The translations under genes and the position numbers were made by a program. From Deltaproteobacteria bacterium (lineage in GTDB: Bacteria > Desulfobacterota > Desulfobacteria > Desulfobacterales > C00003060), in NCBI GenBank assembly GCA_016930875.1, contig JAFGFW010000086.1:1-35004 (forward strand): a stretch of DNA of 35,004 bases, written 5' to 3'. The notes beneath the pieces were generated by a model that ran no database searches, was not told the DNA's origin, and worked only from the letters and a program-made list of their open reading frames with translations. Shown here one piece after another: positions 24,441-34,772 of this stretch; position 1 is the first letter of the stretch, and every line of letters starts with the position of its first letter.

Positions 24441-24752
24441 ATGGACGTTCAAGATTATTGCAAAGCTATGGACATGGAGCTTACAGCTTGAAAGGCCAAG
24501 ATGTATGATGTCACGCGCAGGTTGGACCAATTGGGAAGCGCTGAAAAAGAAAAGATTTTACCCAACGTTGAGGACATGCACATGCTCGTGGTGCAGATGG
24601 ATGATAGAATTTCGCAACTCACCAGAGAGTGCCCTTCGGAGTGGAGCCCCGTTAAGAAGGAGATAGACGACGCCCATATTGATATGAGGTCGAAGTTTGA
24701 GGAGACCATGTCATTTATTGGCAAGGCAGCGCCCGTCTCCATCCCCGGCTAA
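24441..24752 (+). pseudogene. small conserved-looking gene interrupted by one in-frame TGA (codon 17)
   Basis: An AGGAGG ribosome site (24429-24434) stands at the right distance before ATG 24441, which opens MDVQDYCKAMDMELTA, then a TGA (24489-24491), then the same frame continues for 87 codons from KAKMYDVTRRLDQLG to AAPVSIPG. The rest is an acidic, helical protein with EDMHMLVVQMDDRISQLTRECPSEWSPVKKEIDDAHIDMRSKFEE. From memory of similar hypothetical proteins I expect Trp (TGG) at the interrupted position, which is one base from TGA; this is not verified. Without the stop it would be a 103-residue protein of unknown function. Alternatives are internal initiation at ATG 24501, readthrough, or sequence error. 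I see no convincing selenocysteine-insertion stem-loop just after the TGA. Confidence 0.6.
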
Positions 24753-24763: not shown

Positions 24764-24813
24764 ACACCTATTTCAACCTTGACGAAACTGAGTTCAAAAA
24801 AGAGGTGACACTG

Positions 24814-24876
24814 ATGAAAATAAAGAAAGTAGAGAAGGTGGCAAAAGGCCTTTGTAAGTGTAAGAACTCTTGCTGA
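24814..24876 (+). CDS. 20-residue Cys-rich small peptide, copy 1
   Basis: ATG 24814 opens a 20-codon frame, MKIKKVEKVAKGLCKCKNSC, ending in TGA. AGAGGTGA (24801-24808) is a well-placed ribosome site. The peptide is basic (eight Lys) with three Cys in a C-x-C-x3-C arrangement ending at the C-terminus. A second copy at 29448-29510 shares 15 of 20 residues, while eight codons differ only synonymously (K2, I3, K5, V6, K8, L13, C14, C16) and four of the five replacements are conservative. This supports selection on the peptide. A hairpin with a T-rich tail follows within 25 nt. No signal peptide or known motif is visible. It could be a metal- or thiol-active peptide, a precursor peptide, or a Cys-codon leader peptide. 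I do not recognise the family. Confidence 0.7.
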   Translation: MKIKKVEKVAKGLCKCKNSC

Positions 24877-24900
24877 ATCTGTTTTTGGTTTCACCGACAG

Positions 24901-24936
24901 GGTCGGCAGCTGCAGCTGTCGGCCTTGTTCTTCTTT
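24901..24936 (+). terminator. intrinsic-terminator-like hairpin after peptide copy 1
   Basis: GGTCGGCAGC-TGCA-GCTGTCGGCC (24901-24924) folds as a 10-bp stem with two G-U pairs and a 4-nt loop, followed by TTGTTCTTCTTT. An overlapping alternative pairs CCGACAG (24894-24900) with CTGTCGG. It lies 24 nt after the peptide stop and upstream of the flavoprotein gene at 25037, so it may act as terminator or attenuator. The block ACAGGGTCG at its start and GGCCT after the stem recur behind peptide copy 2. Confidence 0.6.
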
Positions 24937-25036
24937 GCGAGGCAAGTTTCCTAACAAGCGCTTCCAGCCGGGGCCAATTTCTGTGTAGAGGCCTTGCTTC
25001 GGAATGACTTTTTTCTCTTTTTGGCGAGGTGCACAA

Positions 25037-25417
25037 ATGGATCTCAAGAATTACTTCGAAAATACGGAGGGCATCGGCGTGCTGGCCTCTGCGGACGCTG
25101 AGGGTAGGGTGGACGCTGCTATATATTCAAGGCCTCACGTCATGGATTCGGATACGGTGGCATTCATTATGCGGGATCGTCTGACCCATCACAACCTACA
25201 GTCCAATCCCCATTCGGCCTACCTTTTTATGGAAGCGGGAGAAAAGCATGTTGGCAAGCGACTATTCCTAACCAAAATTCGCGAAGAGCAGAACACCGAG
25301 CTGGCCTATAAACTTCGGAGGAGGAAATACTCGGAGGACAAGCAAGAACCGCTCTTCCTGGCCTTCTTCCGTATTGATAAGATCCTGCCGCTGATTGGTC
25401 CCCGAGAGGATGACTAG
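25037..25417 (+). CDS. pyridoxamine 5'-phosphate oxidase-like (split-barrel flavin-binding) protein
   Basis: The 126-residue protein matches the short PNPOx-like split-barrel family. It begins MDLKNYFENTEGIGVLASADAEGRVDAAIYSRPHVMDSDTVAFIM, where the first strands and the turn after the GxV motif are typical. It continues with HHNLQSNPHSAYLFMEAG and ends with a conserved IDKILPLIG. Members usually bind FMN or F420 and reduce or sense small molecules; the true substrate is unknown. GAGGTG (25026-25031) supports the ATG at 25037. It is followed 12 nt later by a DUF1499 lipoprotein gene, probably in the same transcript, and is preceded by a long structured leader holding the peptide hairpin. Confidence 0.78.
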   Translation: MDLKNYFENTEGIGVLASADAEGRVDAAIYSRPHVMDSDTVAFIMRDRLTHHNLQSNPHSAYLFMEAGEKHVGKRLFLTKIREEQNTELAYKLRRRKYSEDKQEPLFLAFFRIDKILPLIGPREDD

Positions 25418-25429
25418 GGGGCAGTCATT

Positions 25430-25900
25430 TTGGCGGCGTTTCAGAGATTATTCTTTGTGTTACTGGTGGTGTCCCTTATGTTGTCAAACTGCTCAGGAAC
25501 TAAACCAGAAGATTTGGGGTGCACTGAAGGCAGACTATCGCCTTGTCCAGACTCACCGAATTGCGTCTCTTCACAGAGTTCAGACAAATCCCATTACGTA
25601 AAGCCTCTCACCTACAGGGGCACTTTGACAGAGGCGAGGAAGGCTATTCTGTCGGTGATTGGTGAATGGCCTAACAGTGAGATGGTCAAGGTGACGGGTC
25701 ATTATGTCCATGCCAAGTTCACCTCCAGATTCTTTCGATTTGTGGATGACGTTGAGTTTTATATTGATGATGAGCTCAGAATCATCCATGTCAGATCATC
25801 ATCGCGCGTGGGCCATTTTGATTTTGGGGTAAACAGAAGAAGAATTGAGCGAATTCGAGTCAAGTTTGCCGTACTGACAACCTCAGAAAGCGCTTTATGA
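25430..25900 (+). CDS. DUF1499 domain lipoprotein
   Basis: The protein has an N-terminal signal (FQRLFFVLLVVSLMLSNC) ending in a lipobox-like LSNC at Cys21, so it is probably a lipoprotein. The mature part is a DUF1499 domain: LSPCPDSPNCVSSQSSDKSHYVKPL is the family's strongest hallmark, followed by VHAKFTSRFFRFVDDVEFYIDDELRIIHVRSSSRVGHFDFGVNRRRIERIR. The function of DUF1499 is not established. The start is TTG 25430 with a GGGGG stretch upstream; no earlier ATG is available. The gene follows the flavoprotein gene closely. The stop TGA at 25898 is followed in the same frame by an uninterrupted stretch into the kinase-like fragment at 25922. Confidence 0.82.
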   Translation: MAAFQRLFFVLLVVSLMLSNCSGTKPEDLGCTEGRLSPCPDSPNCVSSQSSDKSHYVKPLTYRGTLTEARKAILSVIGEWPNSEMVKVTGHYVHAKFTSRFFRFVDDVEFYIDDELRIIHVRSSSRVGHFDFGVNRRRIERIRVKFAVLTTSESAL

Positions 25901-25921
25901 ACACCAACGGCGTTTAGGCTA

Positions 25922-26137
25922 TTGAAATTTGCAAACGATATGGCCCTCAGGTTGATGCATGAGTTGCGAAATCCTCTGGTATCCATTGGTGGCTTTTCCA
26001 AAAAAATCGCCACCGGGCACTATGCGGACGACAGATTGGCCGAATACACAGGAATCATATTCAAGGAGGCCAAGAGACTCGATATGGCGCTCAGTGAGTT
26101 GCTTGTGCAACTGGAGGCTGCCGCCCATAAGGCATAG
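25922..26137 (+). CDS. stand-alone histidine-kinase dimerisation (HisKA) fragment
   Basis: This 71-residue frame carries a clear H box, LMHELRNPLVSIGGFSKKI, followed by the second helix of a dimerisation/phosphoacceptor domain (DDRLAEYTGIIFKEAKRLDMALSELL). No ATPase domain follows and no sensor domain precedes, so it cannot autophosphorylate alone. It starts at TTG 25922 or ATG 25940, both without a good ribosome site. It is either a remnant of a truncated sensor kinase or a small phosphotransfer protein. The frame is continuous with the preceding lipoprotein gene across its stop codon. I lean towards a remnant, since there are other broken genes in this region. Confidence 0.5.
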   Translation: MKFANDMALRLMHELRNPLVSIGGFSKKIATGHYADDRLAEYTGIIFKEAKRLDMALSELLVQLEAAAHKA

Positions 26138-26184
26138 CATGGTTTTTGCTCCCTGCTGAAGCCTTTCTGAAAGAAGAAAGTTTC

Positions 26185-26961
26185 ATGACTCCAAGCGTTT
26201 TTGTCTCCCATGGCATGCCTGCCATTGTCGTGCAGCCGGGACCAACGCACCATTTCTTTCGGGCTCTTGGACAGACCCTTGATCGCCCTAAGGCCGTCGT
26301 CTGTGTCTCCGCCCATTGGGAAGCTGTGCGTCCCATGTTGACAGCCACGGCCATGCCCGAGACGATACATGATTTCTCCGGGCCCCAGACCCTCTTCGAA
26401 AAGGATTATCCAGCGCCTGGCGACCCGGACCTCGTCCAAGAAGCACTAAAATTGTTGAGCCATGCGGGGATTGATGCCGGCACCGATCCCTCCCGAGGCC
26501 TTGACCATGGGGCCTGGGTTCCCCTCATGTTGATGTATCCAGAAGCCACAATCCCAGTGGTGCAGCTTTCGATTCAGACGGAGTTGAATGCGAAGCATCA
26601 TGTTGCTTTGGGCAGTGCGTTGCGGCCTCTGAGAGGAGATGGCGTTTTGATCCTCGGAAGCGGTGGTGCAACCCACAACCTCCCAGAGATTCATAAGTAC
26701 GGTTCTGATTCTCCGGCGACAGACTACGCTTTGGCATTCGATACGTGGCTGCAAGAGGCCATAACTCAAGGCCGGGAGGAGGCCCTTCTCAACTACAAAG
26801 AAGAGGGACCATCTGCGTCAAGGAATCACCCGTATCCTGCCGAACACTTTATGCCCCTCTTTGTTCCTTTAGGGGCGGCAGGCCCGGGGGCAAGAGGTCG
26901 TTTGCTCCACAAGGCATTTATGTATGGCGTCTTGTCCATGGCCGCTTATATCTGGGATTGA
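26185..26961 (+). CDS. LigB/DODA-type extradiol ring-cleavage dioxygenase family protein
   Basis: The protein belongs to the class III extradiol dioxygenase fold shared by YgiD and plant DOPA dioxygenases. Metal-ligand candidates are in VFVSHGMP, VCVSAHWE, GLDHGAWVPL and SGGATHNL; the family usually uses a His/His/His zinc or iron site. The C-terminal NHPYPAEHFMPLFVPLGAAG is also conserved. The ATG at 26185 fits the family N-terminus; the frame is open back to a TTG at 26146. At 258 residues it has normal length. The physiological substrate is unknown, and an oxygen-dependent enzyme would be notable in an anaerobe. Confidence 0.88.
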   Translation: MTPSVFVSHGMPAIVVQPGPTHHFFRALGQTLDRPKAVVCVSAHWEAVRPMLTATAMPETIHDFSGPQTLFEKDYPAPGDPDLVQEALKLLSHAGIDAGTDPSRGLDHGAWVPLMLMYPEATIPVVQLSIQTELNAKHHVALGSALRPLRGDGVLILGSGGATHNLPEIHKYGSDSPATDYALAFDTWLQEAITQGREEALLNYKEEGPSASRNHPYPAEHFMPLFVPLGAAGPGARGRLLHKAFMYGVLSMAAYIWD

Positions 26962-27011
26962 CCATCCCTTCAATAGGGCCGTCAAGCTATTTTCTTCGCT
27001 CGTCTCGGCCT

Positions 27012-27404
27012 TCACTGGCTCTTCAAAATTCGTGTGATTCGATGAAGGGCAATACGACACACGATGACATAGGATGCAGCGAAGATAGGCACCTGGAAGA
27101 CAAGCCGGCAGACGCCCTTGTCCACCCGATCCACACGGTGTCCCGTTGCAGGAAACCCAAAGACATGCCAGGACCAGTATCGGCCGTCATCCATTTCAGT
27201 GATGGCAAAAGGCGCCCACAACCCCAGGGCACTTCGGACTCGGCCTTTTGAGCCCAATTGGATATAGCGCTCTGAACACTCCACAGCAAGGACGGAGGGG
27301 CCCCATTCCACCCAGCGGGAAGTGTCTGTGAGCAAATTCCAAAGGGTCGCGCAGGAGGCATTGATTATGCCACTCGTCTCAATATATGGAAATCTAAACG
27401 TCAT
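27012..27404 (-). CDS. SRPBCC (START/polyketide cyclase-like) family protein
   Basis: The 130-residue protein shows the SRPBCC layout: a first strand IETSGIINASCATLWNLLTDTSRWVEWGPSV, in which a strand is followed by the helix-loop W-x2-W motif, then GSKGRVRSALG, and a C-terminal helix (FAASYVIVCRIALHRITRIL). Members bind hydrophobic ligands in a deep pocket. It lies 47 nt downstream of the photolyase gene on the same strand, so both are probably co-transcribed; small SRPBCC proteins accompany photolyases in several light-stress gene clusters of proteobacteria. It converges with the dioxygenase gene. The ligand is unknown. Confidence 0.75.
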   Translation of the reverse strand: MTFRFPYIETSGIINASCATLWNLLTDTSRWVEWGPSVLAVECSERYIQLGSKGRVRSALGLWAPFAITEMDDGRYWSWHVFGFPATGHRVDRVDKGVCRLVFQVPIFAASYVIVCRIALHRITRILKSQ

Positions 27405-27451
27405 GATTTCAGGTCAACCCCAAAGAGGCTCACCCATACAGCCAGCATGGA

Positions 27452-28825
27452 CTATTCGAAGCTCCCCTTGGAAAGGGAATCAACCTGCCTAACGTAAGCT
27501 TCAATATTGAACTTGCGTCGTAAGCCGGCCGCGTTCATAAATCTGACTTTCCCAAAGACCGGCCTTTCTTTCCATGCCCGGTCGTGTTTGCCAAAACACC
27601 AAGCCACGCCAGCAAAGCCATTGGGATCTCTGCCATCTAACTCATACTTGTTGTTGAGATAAAGGGCGATGCGGTAGCCTTCCTCTAGGGTCTTGCTCCA
27701 CTCCAGGATCTTCTTACCCCAATACATGCGCATGTAATTGTGCATCTTGCCGGTGGCGACCATTTCCTGCTGTGCAGCGTTCCAGTACGGATCATGGGTC
27801 CGTGCCGTCTCCCATTCCTCTAAATGGTAAACGTATTCTCGCAGATCCTTTTGGTGGACCTTTAACGTATCCTTTGCCCATTCAGGGAGTGCTTCAAAGG
27901 TGTCATAGTGGGCGTTGTAGTGGACGAAGTTCATGCTGAGTTCTCGACGAACCACCAATTCTTCCAGGTAGGCGTCTTTGGCCTTCTTGGACTTGCCTCG
28001 CGCCTGATGGACTTTCAAAGCAATATGAAGGGGAGAGATCTGCCCGAAGTGCAGATAAGGGCTCATGTGGGAACCGAGATTGAGACTCGGATCGCTCCGT
28101 CGCTCAGCATAGTCTTTAAGCTTATTTGCGATGAATGCCTCTAGGAGTTGTTCCCCGTGAGAGGCGCCGCCTCGGAAGGAATCCACAGGAGTCACCGTAA
28201 CGTCAATTTTCAGGCGTGTGATGATCCCCTTCACGTCACCCAAATTCACACTTTGACACTTGAATCCCAGGGAATCTCTTTTGATGGGCATCTCTTTCAA
28301 TGGCACCAAGTAACGCGAGAGATACCTTTCAATTTTTGGGCGTAAGATCCCGGCACTGTAAGCTTCCTTGTCTGATGCAACCTCCACGGGCACTACGACA
28401 TCGCTTTCCACTTGGAGGACAAGGCATGAGACCTTTTCCGACACATGCCGGCGCCATTGCTTCTGAATTCGGAGATATCCTCGGTCGGTTACCACCAGGG
28501 AGGCCTCTCTGGCCAGTTGTATGGCAGCGAGCTCAGGAGACTCAAGCTTTACAACGAATTGAATGCCTTGCTTCATCAAAACATCGCGGACTTCTCTCAG
28601 GCCCTCTAACATGAACGTGTAGTGGCGGGCATTGGCCTCGGGAAAGCGGTTGGTAATCCCAAAGAGGACCAACAGGGGTTCATGTCTTTCGTTTGCCTGT
28701 TGAATAGCGAATGCCAATGCATGATTCCACGTTGCCCGCTGTGAGGCCTGCATCCAGTACAGAACGTATTTTCCCCTTTGAACGGGGCGGTCATTCAAGG
28801 CTTGAATCCGTTCAGGTTGAATCAT
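27452..28825 (-). CDS. phr: class II cyclobutane pyrimidine dimer photolyase
   Basis: Photolyase repairs UV-induced cyclobutane dimers with light and FADH-. Class II features are QRATWNHALAFAIQQANE near the N-terminus, DRGYLRIQKQWRRHV, SHMSPYLHFGQISP, NFVHYN, and the C-terminal FAD region MHNYMRMYWGKKILEWS ... LNNKYELDGRDPNGFAGVAWCFGKHDRAW, which is characteristic of this class. I start at ATG 28825 (AAGGA upstream), giving 457 residues; the frame runs on to 28963 but that part is not conserved. The next gene in its transcript is the SRPBCC protein. It is one of two UV-repair genes here, the other being the glycosylase remnant at 32855. Confidence 0.94.
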   Translation of the reverse strand: MIQPERIQALNDRPVQRGKYVLYWMQASQRATWNHALAFAIQQANERHEPLLVLFGITNRFPEANARHYTFMLEGLREVRDVLMKQGIQFVVKLESPELAAIQLAREASLVVTDRGYLRIQKQWRRHVSEKVSCLVLQVESDVVVPVEVASDKEAYSAGILRPKIERYLSRYLVPLKEMPIKRDSLGFKCQSVNLGDVKGIITRLKIDVTVTPVDSFRGGASHGEQLLEAFIANKLKDYAERRSDPSLNLGSHMSPYLHFGQISPLHIALKVHQARGKSKKAKDAYLEELVVRRELSMNFVHYNAHYDTFEALPEWAKDTLKVHQKDLREYVYHLEEWETARTHDPYWNAAQQEMVATGKMHNYMRMYWGKKILEWSKTLEEGYRIALYLNNKYELDGRDPNGFAGVAWCFGKHDRAWKERPVFGKVRFMNAAGLRRKFNIEAYVRQVDSLSKGSFE

Positions 28826-28962
28826 GCCAGTATCCTTATCCCAGCCCTGCCGGCCCACTATCCTATGAAGGAATGACCGCCGTCTTCGTTTCAGCCCGTG
28901 ATCACAGTTCTCAGCAGCTACCTTAAAGCCGACAGCCTGGATTGAATGATTGCTCCTTATCA

Positions 28963-29295
28963 ATGAGAGCTGAGAGCGGGTTGGATGTCAAGAGAGAACG
29001 GACACGAGTCGGTTTCATGGACATCTCGCCTCCTTTTCATATGGTTCACGGTACAGAGGTTTTGGTTTTCCTTGAAAACTCCATTATAAAGGGTATGCTG
29101 AAAGTGCCAAGAAAAAAGCCCCTCTTAGCCTCTGAAGAGGCTCAAGGGGCCCTATTTTTGAATGAGCTCTGCATAGTCTGTGCCGATGAACCCTGGGATT
29201 CGTCGGCGAGAATCTACATGGTCGGTGATCCAAAAAATACCGTATTGGCTCGGGTAAAATACCGCCTTTACCCTATCGACTTCATCTCGAGTTAA
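28963..29295 (+). CDS. hypothetical protein (110 residues)
   Basis: This frame runs divergently from the photolyase. The segment from MVHGTEVLVFLENSIIKGMLKVPRKKP to ARIYMVGDPKNTVLARVKYRLYPIDF reads like a small beta-rich protein, with protein-like composition, but I do not recognise a family. The start is unclear: ATG 28963, ATG 29017 and ATG 29041 are all possible and none has a good ribosome site. Against it being real, a textbook terminator-like hairpin with a T5 tail lies inside the frame at 29118-29159. It could be a genuine gene, a decayed one, or a chance open frame. Confidence 0.45.
   Translation: MRAESGLDVKRERTRVGFMDISPPFHMVHGTEVLVFLENSIIKGMLKVPRKKPLLASEEAQGALFLNELCIVCADEPWDSSARIYMVGDPKNTVLARVKYRLYPIDFISS
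29118..29159 (+). terminator. intrinsic-terminator-like hairpin within a reading frame
   Basis: An A-rich stretch (GAAAAAAG) precedes GCCCCT (29118-29123), then AGCCTC/GAGGCT (29127-29132 and 29137-29142), then AGGGGC (29145-29150), and CCTATTTTT follows. The combined stem has about 12 pairs around a small interior loop. The A-tract before and T-tract after would allow function on both strands. It lies within the open frame 28963-29295. Confidence 0.55.
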
Positions 29296-29343
29296 GGCTA
29301 AAGATAAAGACGGCGAGGGCCGTATCCTAAATAGTGAGTCATA

Positions 29344-29429
29344 TGACCATCAGGAGGAGACTCGACTGGTGGTAAGGCTTTGGTCACGTTGATAAGCCGA
29401 TCCGATGTCGAACCTCTGAGTGGCACTCA
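29344..29429 (+). promoter_or_regulatory. structured leader upstream of peptide copy 2
   Basis: ACCATCAG (29346-29353) can pair with CTGGTGGT (29366-29373) across a 12-nt loop, and TGACCA (29344-29349) alternatively with TGGTCA (29381-29386), so two folds exclude each other. A further small hairpin, TGAGT-GGC-ACTCA (29417-29429), ends just before the ribosome site of the peptide. This may be a regulatory leader, but the pairs are short. Confidence 0.3.
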
Positions 29430-29447
29430 AACAAAGGGGGTGAACCC

Positions 29448-29510
29448 ATGAAGATCAGAAAGGTGGTAAAAGTGTCTCGAGGCTTGTGCAAGTGCAAGAG
29501 CTCTTGCTAG
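29448..29510 (+). CDS. 20-residue Cys-rich small peptide, copy 2
   Basis: ATG 29448 opens MKIRKVVKVSRGLCKCKSSC, ending in TAG, with AAAGGGGGTGA (29433-29443) as ribosome site. It has the same length as copy 1 and keeps every Cys, the GLCKCK core, the final Ser-Cys and the basic N-terminal half; the differences are K4R, E7V, A10S, K11R and N18S. The upstream block TCAAAxAAAGxGGTGA and the downstream hairpin start ACAGGGTCG are also shared with copy 1, so a cassette of about 170 bp is duplicated. The neighbour 79 nt downstream is tspO, while copy 1 precedes a flavoprotein gene. Function unknown. Confidence 0.7.
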   Translation: MKIRKVVKVSRGLCKCKSSC

Positions 29511-29534
29511 TGCCATGATTGGCCATCATACATA

Positions 29535-29570
29535 CAGGGTCGATAGTGGAGATCCTGGGGCCTGTTTTTT
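29535..29570 (+). terminator. hairpin with T6 tract after peptide copy 2
   Basis: CAGGGTC (29535-29541) pairs with GATCCTG (29551-29557) through seven pairs including one G-U, with a 9-nt loop. GGGCCTG and TTTTTT (29565-29570) follow. The stem starts 24 nt after the peptide stop. An upstream hairpin, ATGAT-TGGCC-ATCAT (29515-29529), lies between stop and stem. The element mirrors the one behind copy 1 in position and in the ACAGGGTCG and GGCCT blocks. Confidence 0.5.
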
Positions 29571-29588
29571 CGGTGCAAGGCATTGAAT

Positions 29589-30065
29589 ATGCGTCAACGT
29601 GATCTGCGGTCCCCTCTTGTTTTGATTGGCTTTCTCGCTCTATCATTCATTGTTGCCTTGTCGGGAATCAGATTTCAGCCGGGTGAATGGTACGAGGGCC
29701 TGTTGAAACCGTCCTGGACGCCACCCAACTCGGCTTTTGGCCCAGCCTGGACCATGCTTTATGTCTTGATGGCAACCTCAGCCTGGATGGTATGTAAATC
29801 TGCTGGCATTGCAAGGGCCAAGGGGGCGCTTGCGGTGTACTTGTTTCAGCTTCTTCTCAATGCTTCCTGGTCCCTGGTTTTCTTTGGATTGCACCGCATG
29901 GGGCTTGGGTTTGTGAATATTGTTTTGCTGTGGTTCGCTATTGCCGCCACAGCCGGACTCTTCTGGCGGCACCACAAGGTGGCAACCATCTTGCTTGTTC
30001 CTTATCTGCTTTGGGTCGGATTCGCGGGCGTACTGAATTTCACTATTTGGCGACTCAATGCCTGA
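29589..30065 (+). CDS. tspO: TspO/MBR family membrane protein
   Basis: TspO proteins are five-helix membrane proteins that bind porphyrins and are tied to oxidative or photo-stress responses. The sequence shows the family core WYEGLLKPSWTPPNSAFGPAWTMLYVLMATSAW after the first membrane helix, then further hydrophobic helices (YLFQLLLNASWSLVFFG, FVNIVLLWFAIAATAGLFW, ILLVPYLLWVGFAGVLNFTIWRLN). The 158-residue length is normal. I use the ATG at 29589 with AAGG (29577-29580) upstream; a TTG at 29583 is in frame. It follows the second peptide cassette and is followed, after a 150-bp gap, by an SDR gene. Confidence 0.93.
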   Translation: MRQRDLRSPLVLIGFLALSFIVALSGIRFQPGEWYEGLLKPSWTPPNSAFGPAWTMLYVLMATSAWMVCKSAGIARAKGALAVYLFQLLLNASWSLVFFGLHRMGLGFVNIVLLWFAIAATAGLFWRHHKVATILLVPYLLWVGFAGVLNFTIWRLNA

Positions 30066-30216
30066 GCTGGTCAACTGTCGAGATCTATTGGAGATGGAGG
30101 TGTGCCGCCTTAACCGAGAGGGAAGGTTCATATGTCTGAACCCTTAAAAACGCCATCAAGGCAGCCCAAAAACCCATGGAGACATATGATTTGAGTTCGT
30201 TACATGGAGACGTGAA

Positions 30217-31197
30217 GTGATGACTGCATTGCCAACAAACATCCTGCTGACCGGCCCCACTGGATTTATCGGTGGTCGACTGCTGTATGCCCTTGATCAA
30301 GAAGGGTTTCGGGTTAGATGCCTCGTTCGCCTGTCGGAAAGGCTGGAAATCAAACGCCCCCTGAAACGGGAGCCAGAAGTGGCCTATGCCGATCTACTCC
30401 AACCGGAAACATTGCCGCCGGTCATGGAAGGCATGGACGCTGCCTATTATCTTGTACATTCCATGGGTGGCCGAAGCATACAGGAAACCAAGGCCTTTGC
30501 AGAGCGGGATCGAAGGTGTGCCAGGAATTTCCTAAAGGCGGCGGAAGAGGCTGGTTTGAAGCGAATTATCTACCTCGGAGGTCTCGGCGAGACAGGCGAC
30601 AAACTCTCAAAGCATCTTGCCAGCCGGCAGGAAGTGGCGAACATGCTCCAGTCTGGCCGTGTGGAGACCACGGCACTGCGGGCAGCGGTCATTATCGGGG
30701 CGGGCGGTGCGTCCTTCGAACTGCTCCGTTATCTGGCGGAGCGTCTTCCGGTGATGATGTGCCCCCGCTGGGTAAACACCCGGTCTCAGCCGATTGCCGT
30801 TGAAAACGTGATTTCATACCTTGTGGGGTGCCTGCGCCAGCCCGCCACCTCGGGTTTGACCCTGGATATCGGAGGACCGGACATTATTTCCTATCGGGAA
30901 ATGATGTTGATCTATGCGAAGGTGCGCGGATTACACCGGTTCGTTTTTACGGTCCCGGTCTTGACGCCTCGGCTGTCTGCCTACTGGATTAATCTGATAA
31001 CGCCCGTCCCTGCCGGTATTGTTTTCCCCTTGGTAGAGGGCCTCAAGAACGAGGTCATTTGCAGAGACAATCGTATTCGAGACCTCGTTCCTGTGGACCT
31101 CATGAGCATGGAAGAGGCTATCTGCACCTCTCTCACCGAAACAGAAAAAGGGCCTGGTCAACTCCCTTCGAGACAAGCCTGCTTTATCCGCCAGTAA
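30217..31197 (+). CDS. NmrA/SDR-family NAD(P)-binding protein
   Basis: This is an atypical short-chain dehydrogenase with an N-terminal Rossmann motif (LLTGPTGFIGGRLLYAL), a strand-turn YYLVHSMGG in place of the usual active-site segment, and RIIYLGGLGETGDKLSKHLASRQEV followed by TALRAAVIIGAGGASFELLRYL. It is the N-terminal dinucleotide-binding part of a family whose longer members carry a DUF2867 domain, which is absent here (326 residues). Such proteins bind NAD(P) and often act as quinone or redox-associated enzymes; the substrate is unknown. The start is GTG 30217 or ATG 30220, with GGAG at 30205-30208. The family recurs next to photolyase genes in light-stress clusters. Confidence 0.83.
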   Translation: MMTALPTNILLTGPTGFIGGRLLYALDQEGFRVRCLVRLSERLEIKRPLKREPEVAYADLLQPETLPPVMEGMDAAYYLVHSMGGRSIQETKAFAERDRRCARNFLKAAEEAGLKRIIYLGGLGETGDKLSKHLASRQEVANMLQSGRVETTALRAAVIIGAGGASFELLRYLAERLPVMMCPRWVNTRSQPIAVENVISYLVGCLRQPATSGLTLDIGGPDIISYREMMLIYAKVRGLHRFVFTVPVLTPRLSAYWINLITPVPAGIVFPLVEGLKNEVICRDNRIRDLVPVDLMSMEEAICTSLTETEKGPGQLPSRQACFIRQ

Positions 31198-31210
31198 AAG
31201 AAACCCCTTT

Positions 31211-31647
31211 ATGACAGTCTTTGCAAACCACCTGTACAAGATCACGCTCGGCCTCTGCAATGCCTATCTGATTCAGGGAGAAGGCGGGGCGTCCTTGTTG
31301 ACGCCGACCATGTAAACTGCGAGAGAACCTTCATTCGGTATTTAAAAAAACACACCATTGTTCCTGACACCATCAAGCTCATTGTCATCACCCACGTCCA
31401 TTTTGATCACGTGGGAGGCTTGAAGGACCTCAAGACAAGGTGCCGGTGTCCGGTGGCCGTCCACGCCATGGCAGCGTCGGCGCTGAGTGATGGGGCCGTT
31501 TTTTCCCCTCCAGGAACCAACCCAAGGCCTTTGGGGGAAATCCTTGCTGAATCACCCCAGGCACGAAAACCTACGAGTCCTCTTACAACCCCCGTACACA
31601 CCTCCGGCTGCCCCCGTCAACTGGCGGTTTGTCCCAACACGGCATAG
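31211..31647 (+). pseudogene. frameshifted and truncated metallo-beta-lactamase-fold hydrolase
   Basis: The first 26 codons from ATG 31211 read as the start of an MBL-fold protein (FANHLYKITLGLCNAYLIQGEGG) and then meet a stop at 31313. A shift of frame near 31285-31292 continues the same protein as VLVDADHVNCERTF ... LIVITHVHFDHVGGLKDLK, with the canonical HxHxDH metal motif, then CPVAVHAMAASALSDG. After about 31500 the similarity to an MBL protein fades and only about half of a normal domain is present. It lies 13 nt after the SDR gene and its end overlaps the end of the convergent methyltransferase gene. I call it a remnant. Confidence 0.7.
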
Positions 31648-32828
31648 ACAGGATCGGCTGTCAAAAGCCCTGGATAATAGCGATCCGTCTCAGGGCGGGG
31701 CCACCCTCTAGCTGAATAGGTTTTCAAGTTGTCGTAGCTGCCAGATTCCAGGAAGTATTCTGAGACCAAACCCGTTCGCTCAAACTCGCTCAACTCTTCC
31801 CATATTTTGATAGCCTTTGGCGGAAACCAGCGGTTGGAAAAGGTATGGATGAAGAGCCCTTCAGGCCTCAAGATCCTTGCCACATCTCGAAAAACCTCAA
31901 AGGGACGCGTCATGTACTCAACAGATACCGTGCAGATCACCGCGTCAAAGCGCCGGTCCTCAAAGGGCAACCGGGGTTCTGTGTTAAGATCATGGACCAC
32001 GTATTCTGTTAGCTGGGGGTTATCGGCCATTTCTTCGACGTTTAAGCCTAGCCCAACCAGGGATCCAAGGGGAAGCGATTCCGGCACGTGAGATCTCCAG
32101 CTACTCATCAGGTCAAGCACATGCATACCTGGTCGCAGATATCTCCCGTACAGGGCCTTGATCATTGCCTGAGCTTGGCTATCAATGTGCGTAATGAGTC
32201 GAGGTTTGGCGTAGAAGATCGCGTCCTTGCTTTCATCATTCCTCATAAAAGGGTCATCTGAGAAAAAATCGGTTGGTTTTTCTCCAGAACGTGCCTGCAT
32301 GCCGGGGCCATTGGTGATGGTCTCAATCCAATCCGTCAGCCTTCCACCGCGCTCATCGTCCTTTTCTCGAACATCCACCACGGTCACCTGGAGCCCAGTG
32401 GCCCTGTCGGCCAAGGGATGGTTCAGGTCCACCGAGAGTTTTGATCTGTCAACACCAATGCACCGGAACGGTTCCATGTTGGCATCATAGATATTTGCCA
32501 AGCCTTTCAGAAGACCTCTTGGATAGAACCGACCCATCCGGGGTTCAATCCGATGGCCATTGAGTTTTCGCCGTTCAAATTGTTTAGTTGGGATGTCGAA
32601 AACTTGCTTTGTAGCGCAAGAGGGCATCATCTCAGCCGGGGAAAACAGAAATTGGAGTCGATCTTTGGGTTGGCTGCCCATCAATTCGTTCGTGACGACC
32701 TTCGGGAAAAGATCGCGCCAGAAATTAACATGCTCTGCGCGATAGACCTCCGTGTGGGTTGCTAGATCACTCTTCCAGGTGAGTTCGATCTCCAGCGCTC
32801 CCAATGTATGTTCACTGATTCTTGTCAT
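31617..32828 (-). CDS. FKBP-type (SlyD-like) and SAM-dependent methyltransferase fusion protein
   Basis: The 403-residue protein joins two domains. Residues about 10-160 resemble a SlyD-like FKBP peptidyl-prolyl isomerase region, including the motif LSVDLNHPLADRATGLQVTVVDV (130-152); typical SlyD reads DxNHPLAGxxLxFxVxV. Residues about 205-375 are a class I methyltransferase with LRPGMHVLDLMSSWRSHVPE, LPFEDRRFDAVICTVSVEYMTRPFEVFRDVARILRPEGLFIHTFSNRWFP. A good AAGGAGAG site precedes ATG 32828. The DLMSSW-type methyltransferase is a recognised stand-alone family of unknown target. Whether the FKBP part is active is not visible. It belongs to a minus-strand run with the glycosylase remnant and a flavoprotein gene. 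Confidence 0.85.
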   Translation of the reverse strand: MTRISEHTLGALEIELTWKSDLATHTEVYRAEHVNFWRDLFPKVVTNELMGSQPKDRLQFLFSPAEMMPSCATKQVFDIPTKQFERRKLNGHRIEPRMGRFYPRGLLKGLANIYDANMEPFRCIGVDRSKLSVDLNHPLADRATGLQVTVVDVREKDDERGGRLTDWIETITNGPGMQARSGEKPTDFFSDDPFMRNDESKDAIFYAKPRLITHIDSQAQAMIKALYGRYLRPGMHVLDLMSSWRSHVPESLPLGSLVGLGLNVEEMADNPQLTEYVVHDLNTEPRLPFEDRRFDAVICTVSVEYMTRPFEVFRDVARILRPEGLFIHTFSNRWFPPKAIKIWEELSEFERTGLVSEYFLESGSYDNLKTYSARGWPRPETDRYYPGLLTADPVYAVLGQTAS

Positions 32829-32854
32829 AGTTCTCTCCTTGTTCCCCTATTTTT

Positions 32855-33184
32855 TTACACTTCGCATTGACATGCCTTGTTGTTTTGAATGCTTACCTGT
32901 TCCTCGTAAGAATTTACCTGTGCCGTCTGCCTGCCAGATCCAATGGCAAGTTGCTTTGGAAGGGGACTCCGATGCGCATATCCCCTTTTCTTCATTTCTT
33001 GCACAAGGGCTTGGTGACGGAGATAGAGGGCCTTCAGCTTGCCTCGCCACCTTATGGTTTCTGGGTGTTTGGAATAGCCCCTTTTCCTTTGTGTCAATAT
33101 TGCCCAAATAGCGTGTCATTCCCTGTGCTCACCGAGAAGATGTTGGCGACACAATTTTCCCGGAGAAACATCCCAAATCCGCAT
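32855..33184 (-). pseudogene. pyrimidine dimer DNA glycosylase (T4 endonuclease V-like), interrupted by one TGA
   Basis: ATG 33184 follows a strong GGGAGGAAAGG ribosome site and opens MRIWDVSPGKLCRQHLLGEHRE, then a TGA at codon 23 (33116-33118), then HAIWAILTQRKRGYSKHPE and on to the end at 32855 without further stops (RWRGKLKALYLRHQALVQEMKKRGYAHRSPL near the middle). The family, which cleaves UV photoproducts, has a conserved ...EHREL... at this point, as in EYREL of the phage enzyme, so Leu is replaced by a stop. The rest, 109 codons, looks intact. Either a recent nonsense mutation, a sequence error, or, less likely, recoding. Adjacent to the methyltransferase fusion gene (27 nt) on the same strand. 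Confidence 0.72.
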
Positions 33185-33287
33185 GTACCTTTCCTCCCGT
33201 TTGTGATTGAAGATCCTGCCAACTCTTTTGGATATCATTTATAAATTAAGACTGAATCAAAAGGAGTCAATCTGGCGGGAACTTTTG

Positions 33288-33725
33288 TTAAGGCAAGGTT
33301 TCAAAGTAGGAATTGGTTAGGCCGTCTAACAGAAGGAAGGAATGAATCCGGATGGAGAACACCTCTGCATCGGGGTGGTCGGCGAAGCCTTCGAGTTGGG
33401 CATGTCTGCTCATGAGGGCCTCTCGGATCTGGCGCCTCATGTTGTCGTCTCCGATCTGTTCAAACACGCCGGTCACAGTGAGGGCCTTGGCCTGAGAGCG
33501 CCTTGAACCACGATCTTCCTCGCGGGTGTCGATCAAGAGGCTGACCCAGGGATTTTCCCTGAGATTTCTGAATTTCTTTGTGTCTTTGAAGGTCACCATG
33601 TAAATCTCCGTGCACGCATCATTAGCCACATAGGCCATAAGAGAGGAATGGGGCCTGTTGTTGGAAACGGTGGCCAAAACGCACATATCTTTTTCTCTCA
33701 CCAGGATTTTCATCTTATCCAGCAT
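33288..33725 (-). CDS. pyridoxamine 5'-phosphate oxidase-like FMN-binding protein
   Basis: The 145-residue protein fits the split-barrel PNPOx-like family: VREKDMCVLATVSNNRPHSSLMAYVANDACTEIYMVTFKDTKKFRNLRENPWVSLLIDTR is a standard arrangement, with the CVLATV strand, the SxM turn and the KxxNL-x-NP-V-SLL motif. It differs clearly from the 126-residue relative at 25037. The likely cofactor is FMN. AAGGAG before ATG 33725 is a strong ribosome site. It heads a minus-strand set with the glycosylase remnant and the methyltransferase fusion; its substrate is unknown. Confidence 0.85.
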   Translation of the reverse strand: MLDKMKILVREKDMCVLATVSNNRPHSSLMAYVANDACTEIYMVTFKDTKKFRNLRENPWVSLLIDTREEDRGSRRSQAKALTVTGVFEQIGDDNMRRQIREALMSRHAQLEGFADHPDAEVFSIRIHSFLLLDGLTNSYFETLP

Positions 33726-33821
33726 GGTTTTCTCCTTCTTTTCATTGCCCCTTCGAGCCTAACTTGATATATCAACTTACCAAGGATTACCAGTCTCCAT
33801 TTGCCCTGAGGTGGAATCCCT

Positions 33822-34772
33822 ATGGAGATGAAGATAAGATTGGGCATCAGCGCCTGCCTATTGGGGGAAGAAGTCCGTTACGACGGCGGTCACAAACTCG
33901 ATCGGTGCCTCACGGACACGCTTGGAAGATACGTGGAATATGTCCCTGTCTGCCCTGAAGTAGAAGCCGGATTTGGAATTCCCCGGGAGGCCATGCACCT
34001 AGAGGGAGATCCGAATGCCCCGAGACTCGTGACCAGGCGGACCAAGCGGGACCTCACAGAACCGATGCTCTCATGGGCCAAAAAACGGGTCTTAGAACTC
34101 GAGGCTCAAGATCTTTGTGGCTTTATATTTAAAAGCCGGTCTCCTAGCAGTGGTATGGAGCGGATTCCGGTCTTTAACGAAAAGGGGATGCCGGTCAAAA
34201 AGGGCGTTGGCCTTTTTGCACGCATTTTTATGGATCATTTTCCCTTGCTGCCTGTGGAAGACGAGGGCCGGCTCCATGATCCAAAACTAAGAGAAAACTT
34301 CATCGAATGCATCTTTGTATTTAAAAGATGGCGGGAATCCCTCTCACGAGGGAAGAGCCGGCGAGGCTTGATAGATTTCCACACGAAGCACAAGCTCCTG
34401 GTCCTCTCTCACAGCCCGAAGCATTACCAGATGATGGGAAGGCTTGTGGGCCAGGCGAAAGCGTTCGCCTTGGGAGAACTCTATCAAACTTACGAACGCC
34501 TGCTCCTGGAGGCCTTGCGACTTAAGACGACCATCAAGAAGAACGCCAATGTGCTCCAGCACATGATGGGCTATTTCAAGAAAGAGCTATCTTCCGATGA
34601 AAAACAAGAACTCCTGGAAATGATCGGTCTTTACCGTGAAGCGAGTGTTCCCCTGATCGTTCCCGTCACCCTCATGAACCACTACATTCGTAAGTATGAT
34701 CAACCCTACCTTAAAGGACAATACTATCTCCGTACTCACCCCATCGAACTTCAGCTGCGAAACCACGCGTAG
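33822..34772 (+). CDS. DUF523-DUF1722 fusion protein (YbgA family type)
   Basis: The 316-residue protein contains DUF523 (residues about 5-155: LGISACLLGEEVRYDGGHK, VCPEVEAGFGIPREAMHL and GFIFKSRSPSSG) followed by DUF1722 (about 185-305: LIDFHTKHKLLVLSHSPKHYQMMGRLV, LMNHYIRKYDQPYLKGQYYL). The combination is a recognised protein often encoded next to photolyase in proteobacteria; the DUF523 part has conserved Cys and may bind a metal or cluster, but the function is not proven. The start at ATG 33822 or ATG 33828 lacks a clear ribosome site. Its divergent neighbour is the PNPOx-like gene. Confidence 0.88.
   Translation: MEMKIRLGISACLLGEEVRYDGGHKLDRCLTDTLGRYVEYVPVCPEVEAGFGIPREAMHLEGDPNAPRLVTRRTKRDLTEPMLSWAKKRVLELEAQDLCGFIFKSRSPSSGMERIPVFNEKGMPVKKGVGLFARIFMDHFPLLPVEDEGRLHDPKLRENFIECIFVFKRWRESLSRGKSRRGLIDFHTKHKLLVLSHSPKHYQMMGRLVGQAKAFALGELYQTYERLLLEALRLKTTIKKNANVLQHMMGYFKKELSSDEKQELLEMIGLYREASVPLIVPVTLMNHYIRKYDQPYLKGQYYLRTHPIELQLRNHA

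Follow-up and report, generated by a model that had tools for sequence, protein, structure and literature searches.

The window analysed here, a stretch of 35,004 nucleotides (nt) from a deltaproteobacterial, sulfate-reducer-like genome of the phylum Desulfobacterota (contig JAFGFW010000086.1, assembly GCA_016930875.1), contains two homologous 20-codon genes, and this study deals with the peptides they encode, their relatives in other genomes and the enzyme with which they occur. Both open reading frames (ORFs) were found at the coordinates and with the sequences reported in an earlier note on this DNA, and each is preceded by a good, purine-rich ribosome-binding site, as claimed there. The two copies and their immediate surroundings are as follows.

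24802..24807, plus strand: ribosome-binding site GAGGTG of copy 1 (read off the sequence)
24814..24876, plus strand: copy 1, precursor-like peptide gene, MKIKKVEKVAKGLCKCKNSC, including the stop codon (sequence, genome and profile searches)
24896..24929, plus strand: terminator-like hairpin behind copy 1, 15 pairs, 8 of them G-C (both hairpin scans)
25004..25417, plus strand: PNPOx-like protein 3' of copy 1, context only (the same neighbour pair occurs in genome G001)
29436..29442, plus strand: ribosome-binding site GGGGGTG of copy 2 (read off the sequence)
29448..29510, plus strand: copy 2, precursor-like peptide gene, MKIRKVVKVSRGLCKCKSSC, including the stop codon (sequence, genome and profile searches)
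29533..29565, plus strand: weak terminator-like hairpin and T run behind copy 2 (one scan; absent from the stricter scan)
29583..30065, plus strand: TspO/MBR family protein 3' of copy 2, context only (neighbour annotation)

The peptides are identical at 15 of 20 residues, and eight of the identical residues (K2, I3, K5, V6, K8, L13, C14, C16) are encoded by synonymous codons; both counts, read off the DNA, agree with the earlier ones. In this pair, the Nei-Gojobori proportions of synonymous (pS) and non-synonymous (pN) differences are about 1.0 and 0.14, respectively. The suggestion that the copies share flanking blocks holds only in part: a hairpin lies 19–22 nt past the stop codon in both, and they have ACAGGGTCG in common, whereas a repeat scan of the window detected no repeat of 30 nt or longer. 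The pair is not a chance resemblance, since copy 2 matches copy 1 at E = 6.1e-5 in a search of the whole genome, and the three copies in that genome match the family profile at E-values of 1e-8 to 1e-10.

A third copy and a radical SAM protein in the same genome

The assembly that includes the window (G000; 3.68 Mb, 97% complete) was searched with the copy 1 peptide, yielding three sites only, i.e., both window copies and MKVRKVQKCRKGLCKCKSSC at G000:C66:13531-13590; a profile search of the same assembly added no further copies. On contig C66, a gene for a 507-aa radical S-adenosylmethionine (SAM) protein (L004:5670-7193; Pfam Radical_SAM, 2.3e-21) starts 140 nt 3' of the third copy, with a CrtI-like flavin-dependent (FAD) oxidoreductase before this protein and a small cupin-like protein after it. 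Thus, the earlier statement that no maturation enzyme is recognizable nearby is true of the window but not of the genome. As this candidate maturase is encoded on another contig, it would act on the window peptides in trans.

The peptide and the maturase co-occur almost perfectly. Peptides were counted with a profile built from a 12-sequence alignment, requiring a match over positions 1–20 at an E-value of up to 0.12; the full-length rule for weak matches was fixed after viewing the list, without regard to the list of maturases. Full-length peptides were identified in 38 of 395 genomes of the phylum, and the maturase family (alignment search, E <= 1e-60) in 39. All 38 peptide genomes encode the maturase, as opposed to 1 of the 357 others (Fisher p = 2.7e-52, a value that overstates the number of independent events because the genomes are related). 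In the one genome with a maturase but no peptide, G119, the maturase is a fragment on a short contig, and partial-length peptide matches of similar E-value occur without a maturase. Within the genus of the window, the maturase is encoded by 7 of 22 genomes, of which 6 also carry the peptide and the seventh has a maturase fragment only. Across the phylum, a maturase lies within the 3 kb covered at 27 of 28 peptide loci.

The pair also extends beyond Desulfobacterota. Maturases were found in 68 of 198 genomes of the phylum that includes a Nitrospirae metagenome-assembled genome and in 8 of 148 genomes of an archaeal phylum, and the peptide was present at 22 of the 30 inspected Nitrospirota loci and at all eight archaeal ones. 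Overall, 69 distinct 20-aa peptides were collected from Desulfobacterota, Nitrospirota and one archaeal phylum; carriers include Desulfobacterales bin233, Syntrophaceae UBA2188, Nitrospirae GWB2_47_37 and the uncultured archaeon LFW-280_2_2. The earlier note would have counted a lack of homologues outside this genome, or homologues with a broken frame and a conserved hairpin, against a functional peptide; homologues exist, and the frame is broken in none. A tblastn search of the maturase against plasmids gave no match. A relative from Caloramator (L037, 31% identity over 138 residues) was dropped as a general radical SAM match.

Conservation and arrangement of the peptide genes

The consensus of the family, MKI[KR]KVx[KR]xxx-G-L-C-K-C-K-x-S-C, is conserved through the last residue. 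Among the 69 peptides, K5, C14, C16 and C20 are essentially fixed and I3, V6, K15 and S19 nearly so, with variation at position 7 and positions 9–11. There are few outliers: two archaeal sequences have the motif shifted by one and a final Ala, and one sequence is 21 aa long. In 50 distinct genes, pS is 0.83 and pN is 0.27, falling to 0.16 in residues 12–20; hence the conserved tail reflects constraint on the protein rather than on the RNA, in line with the selection on the peptide proposed earlier.

These data bear directly on the possibility that the conserved element is the hairpin or another RNA feature and that the ORF is incidental. A hairpin with a T-rich tail is indeed found 7–26 nt past the stop codon in 38 of 50 copies, compared to 19% of random stretches from the same contigs. 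However, hairpin sequences vary from one lineage to the next, unlike the peptide, the window has no Rfam match, and the codon pattern, with pN far under pS, refutes this explanation, to which we give practically no credence. A tRNA scan of the window returned nothing either.

A cis-acting leader is another explanation, in which translation of the three late Cys codons would control the hairpin and the downstream gene, either by attenuation or by metal sensing of the kind seen in copper-responsive upstream ORFs. In fact, both window copies have a hairpin behind them and, past it, a gene in the same orientation. On the other hand, the peptide gene precedes the maturase in 36 cases and follows it in 30, the order varying by lineage, and the genes that follow it are unrelated (PNPOx, TspO, the maturase). 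Tandem peptides occur in G413 and L029, and the maturase of L084 (G369:C231) has 3' of it two copies of one and the same peptide, MSIKKVEKKMRGTCKCKVSC, which bracket a pair of genes for a class I SAM methyltransferase and a cupin. Placement on either side of the maturase, tandem copies and the usual presence of its own terminator indicate that the small peptide gene stands on its own and is no leader attenuator. The amino acids are conserved up to the very C-terminus while synonymous sites change freely, which points the same way, so that the leader explanation, largely refuted by position, is very unlikely.

Peptide genes far from any maturase are known from the window (both copies), G001, G313:C7, G066:C6 and G354:C15. 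The maturase of G001 (L023/L027, G001:C1:1111544-1113049) has an in-frame TAA inside its Cys-rich N-terminal part, and the most divergent peptide, MKIRKVKHHLNGHCECKGSC, adjoins it, while a second, typical copy is encoded elsewhere in that genome, in trans; this is possibly a case of gene splitting or decay. In G270 (C1:2920647-2942620; L077/L088) a 20-kb interval containing a polysaccharide/glycosyltransferase cluster separates the peptide from the maturase.

Maturase architecture and the proposed precursor role

The maturase consists of three parts: an N-terminal Cys-rich region (VCKRYCSYYKPG...CDFLIDGCDF...PCGGY), a middle domain and a radical SAM/SPASM part. The radical SAM site CX3CX2C (C220/C224/C227) and all seven SPASM cysteines (C418, C434, C466, C469, C475, C479, C494) are invariant across seven aligned homologues. 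The spacing of the latter, C418-x10-G-x4-C434 and C466-x2-C-x5-C-x3-C479, fits the SPASM motif CX9-15GX4C ... CX2CX5CX3C ... C. For the fold, we took the AlphaFold model of L024, a protein 74% identical to the maturase (mean predicted local distance difference test score, pLDDT, 70.7; core 80–95). Its best matches in the PDB are SkfB and SuiB, with VIA-align Z of 22 for both, including the SuiB structure with the bound precursor SuiA, and the match covers the middle domain, since the alignments begin at model residue 124–130.

The middle domain modelled alone (AlphaFold2, 88 aa, pLDDT 93.5) has the strands-then-helices order of a RiPP recognition element (RRE; RiPP, ribosomally synthesized and post-translationally modified peptide), a winged helix. 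Its top Foldseek matches are RREs, namely, TbiB1 with a leader peptide, a lasso B1 protein and SuiB; VIA-align also reports the PbtF RRE, TigE and PqqD. The VIA-align list is headed by carbamoyl transferases, tied at Z about 8, and both the E-values and Z are modest for a domain of 80 residues. By sequence, Pfam PqqD matches one maturase member only, weakly (E 0.012). SkfB, CteB and PqqD share one fold, that of the leader-binding RRE (PMC6231123). The middle domain is thus confidently predicted, from the models, to be a peptide-binding RRE resembling those of known RiPP enzymes.

The co-occurring RRE/radical SAM/SPASM protein strongly supports the earlier hint that the peptide is a precursor, and the window ORFs are very probably precursor genes of an uncharacterized radical SAM/SPASM RiPP-like family. 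As judged from sequence, the system displays every feature of this kind that sequence can test. The other earlier hint, that of a metal-binding peptide, may still apply to the mature product.

According to the mechanism we propose, residues 1 to about 11 (basic, strand-like, MKIRKVxK) would dock on the RRE as the leader, and the radical SAM/SPASM part would modify the C-terminal GLCKCKxSC, most likely at the three invariant Cys, e.g., by thioether links. The window copies would be extra precursor genes, made away from the maturase locus and modified in trans by the C66 enzyme, and the hairpin behind each gene may allow precursor to be produced in excess of enzyme. More speculatively, the product could be a housekeeping redox or metal-binding cofactor or chelator acting inside the cell.

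Several observations weigh against a precursor role. Firstly, no maturase adjoins the window copies, and 8 of the 30 Nitrospirota maturase loci have no peptide within 1.5 kb, although three of these seem to be cut by contig ends. Secondly, Foldseek gives weak E-values for the RRE domain by itself, the best being 0.018, even if the top matches are still RREs. Thirdly, no recurrent leader peptidase was detected in the neighbourhood; a leader peptidase or an exporter could act from elsewhere in the genome. Finally, the case is made from sequence data, and the modification itself is putative.

Several genes recur beside the maturase. They include a Cys-rich partner, fused to the maturase or separate, and, at 13 loci, a cupin in which H26/C28/H50/E52/H103 are conserved and the tail is His-rich. 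This metal theme, together with the metal-binding potential of CxCx3C, would fit an unmodified small Cys protein that binds metal or an Fe-S cluster and serves as a subunit or metal chaperone of the radical SAM protein rather than as its substrate. Such a role is improbable in our view, given that the maturase has the RRE and SPASM domains of known peptide-modifying enzymes and that some genomes have two or three copies of the peptide, some of them far from the maturase, which makes a subunit unlikely.

Sactipeptides have a thioether from Cys to an alpha carbon, and ranthipeptides one to another carbon; the Cys-rich core is compatible with both, and no maturase model of a known family reaches its cut-off. 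The peptide could accordingly be the precursor of a secreted antimicrobial, i.e., a bacteriocin of either type, and the sactipeptide maturases SkfB and CteB have the same plan of RRE, radical SAM and SPASM or Twitch domains, Cys being the usual donors (PMC6231123). Against this, the core hardly varies between phyla or between Bacteria and Archaea, the opposite of diversifying bacteriocins, and no recurrent exporter, protease/peptidase or immunity gene was found among the clustered neighbours. For these two reasons we tentatively favour a housekeeping product, and a bacteriocin is unlikely.

The closest named systems differ from the present one in several respects. The mycofactocin precursor is small and strikingly conserved, with invariant residues mostly at the C-terminus and a genome distribution matching that of one PqqE-like radical SAM protein (PMC3023750). 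The new peptide is likewise conserved, with C-terminal invariants and a distribution tied to one radical SAM protein, and the logic followed here parallels that of the first recognition of mycofactocin (PMC3023750); however, its sequence is different, matching no NCBIfam model, and the maturase does not exceed about 105 bits with TIGR03962, whose cut-off is 265. Pyrroloquinoline quinone (PQQ) biosynthesis by PqqA/PqqD/PqqE also combines a very short precursor (PqqA averages 23 aa; PMC3023750) with an RRE and a radical SAM/SPASM enzyme. In contrast, the new core has three Cys and no Glu/Tyr pair, the RRE is fused to the maturase, and the PqqE model (TIGR02109) gives at most about 74 against a cut-off of 381. 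SkfB, SuiB and CteB, the closest solved structures, have the same N-terminal RRE, radical SAM and Twitch/SPASM domains, but they are only about 15–20% identical, whereas the new system has a much shorter precursor, an added Cys-rich domain or partner and no visible transporter or peptidase cassette. CcpM and other NCBIfam maturases of Cys-rich peptides similarly pair a Cys-rich substrate with a radical SAM/SPASM protein; here, the maturase scores 60 with the CcpM model TIGR04068, for which the cut-off is 500, and the peptide, with 3 Cys among its 20 residues, matched no model.

More generally, the maturases score about 80–116 bits for the best NCBIfam families, far under the cut-offs, none of which is passed, and the partner proteins match nothing. 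Neither the peptide nor the maturase is a member of any named family tested here. Among open-licence PMC papers, i.e., with subscription journals outside the coverage, a search for the peptide motif found no relevant paper, and none of those on radical SAM RiPPs in these phyla describes the family.

Genetically, the pair of peptide and maturase is clear, with a fixed length and a nearly invariant core, and its carriers make up about a tenth of the Desulfobacterota genomes sampled and, counted by maturase, a third of those from Nitrospirota, besides some archaea. Genes of 20 codons normally escape annotation, and therefore a radical SAM enzyme that is widespread would have had its substrate overlooked. 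The peptide family and its unnamed maturase point to an undescribed peptide-derived product in anaerobes. We tentatively consider, as a possibility with the odds against it, that the peptide serves as precursor for a conserved redox or metal cofactor on a par with PQQ or mycofactocin in anaerobic Desulfobacterota, Nitrospirota and archaea, with the maturase fixed and dispersed extra precursors near enzymes that use the cofactor. If so, it would be one more among the few known peptide-derived redox cofactors.

Accessory and neighbouring genes

The cupin was considered as a defining part of the system and rejected. All strong cupin matches (E < 1e-37) fall in peptide genomes; however, weaker cupin relatives are also found where there is no peptide, and a cupin is missing from part of the peptide genomes, and we thus regard it as accessory. 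A second maturase-associated cupin of G000 (C113:4882-5208, L110; E 8.5e-43) adjoins neither a peptide nor a maturase gene. In one family, an ATP-grasp protein recurs (5 loci; Pfam ATP-grasp_3, 5.5e-5), following the maturase or the peptide in L080 (4893-5804), L087, L090, L091 and L092; it is a possible additional tailoring enzyme (ligase) acting on the peptide.

Upstream of copy 1, the ORF at 24441-24752 (MDVQDYCKAMDMELTA-TGA-KAKMYDV...) is interrupted by an in-frame TGA (24489-24491) at a position occupied by Trp in the G001 homologue (L016:5197-5508, minus strand); this is a nonsense change or a sequencing error. A gene of this homology directly precedes the peptide gene in both the window genome and G001. 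Around copy 2 (27452-34772) there are genes for a photolyase, TspO, an NAD-dependent epimerase-like protein, PNPOx and DUF523-DUF1722, a set reminiscent of light- or oxidative-stress clusters. The in-trans peptide of G313:C7 (L079) is likewise flanked by DUF523-DUF1722 and PNPOx genes, and DUF523-DUF1722 adjoins the maturase in L087 and L091.

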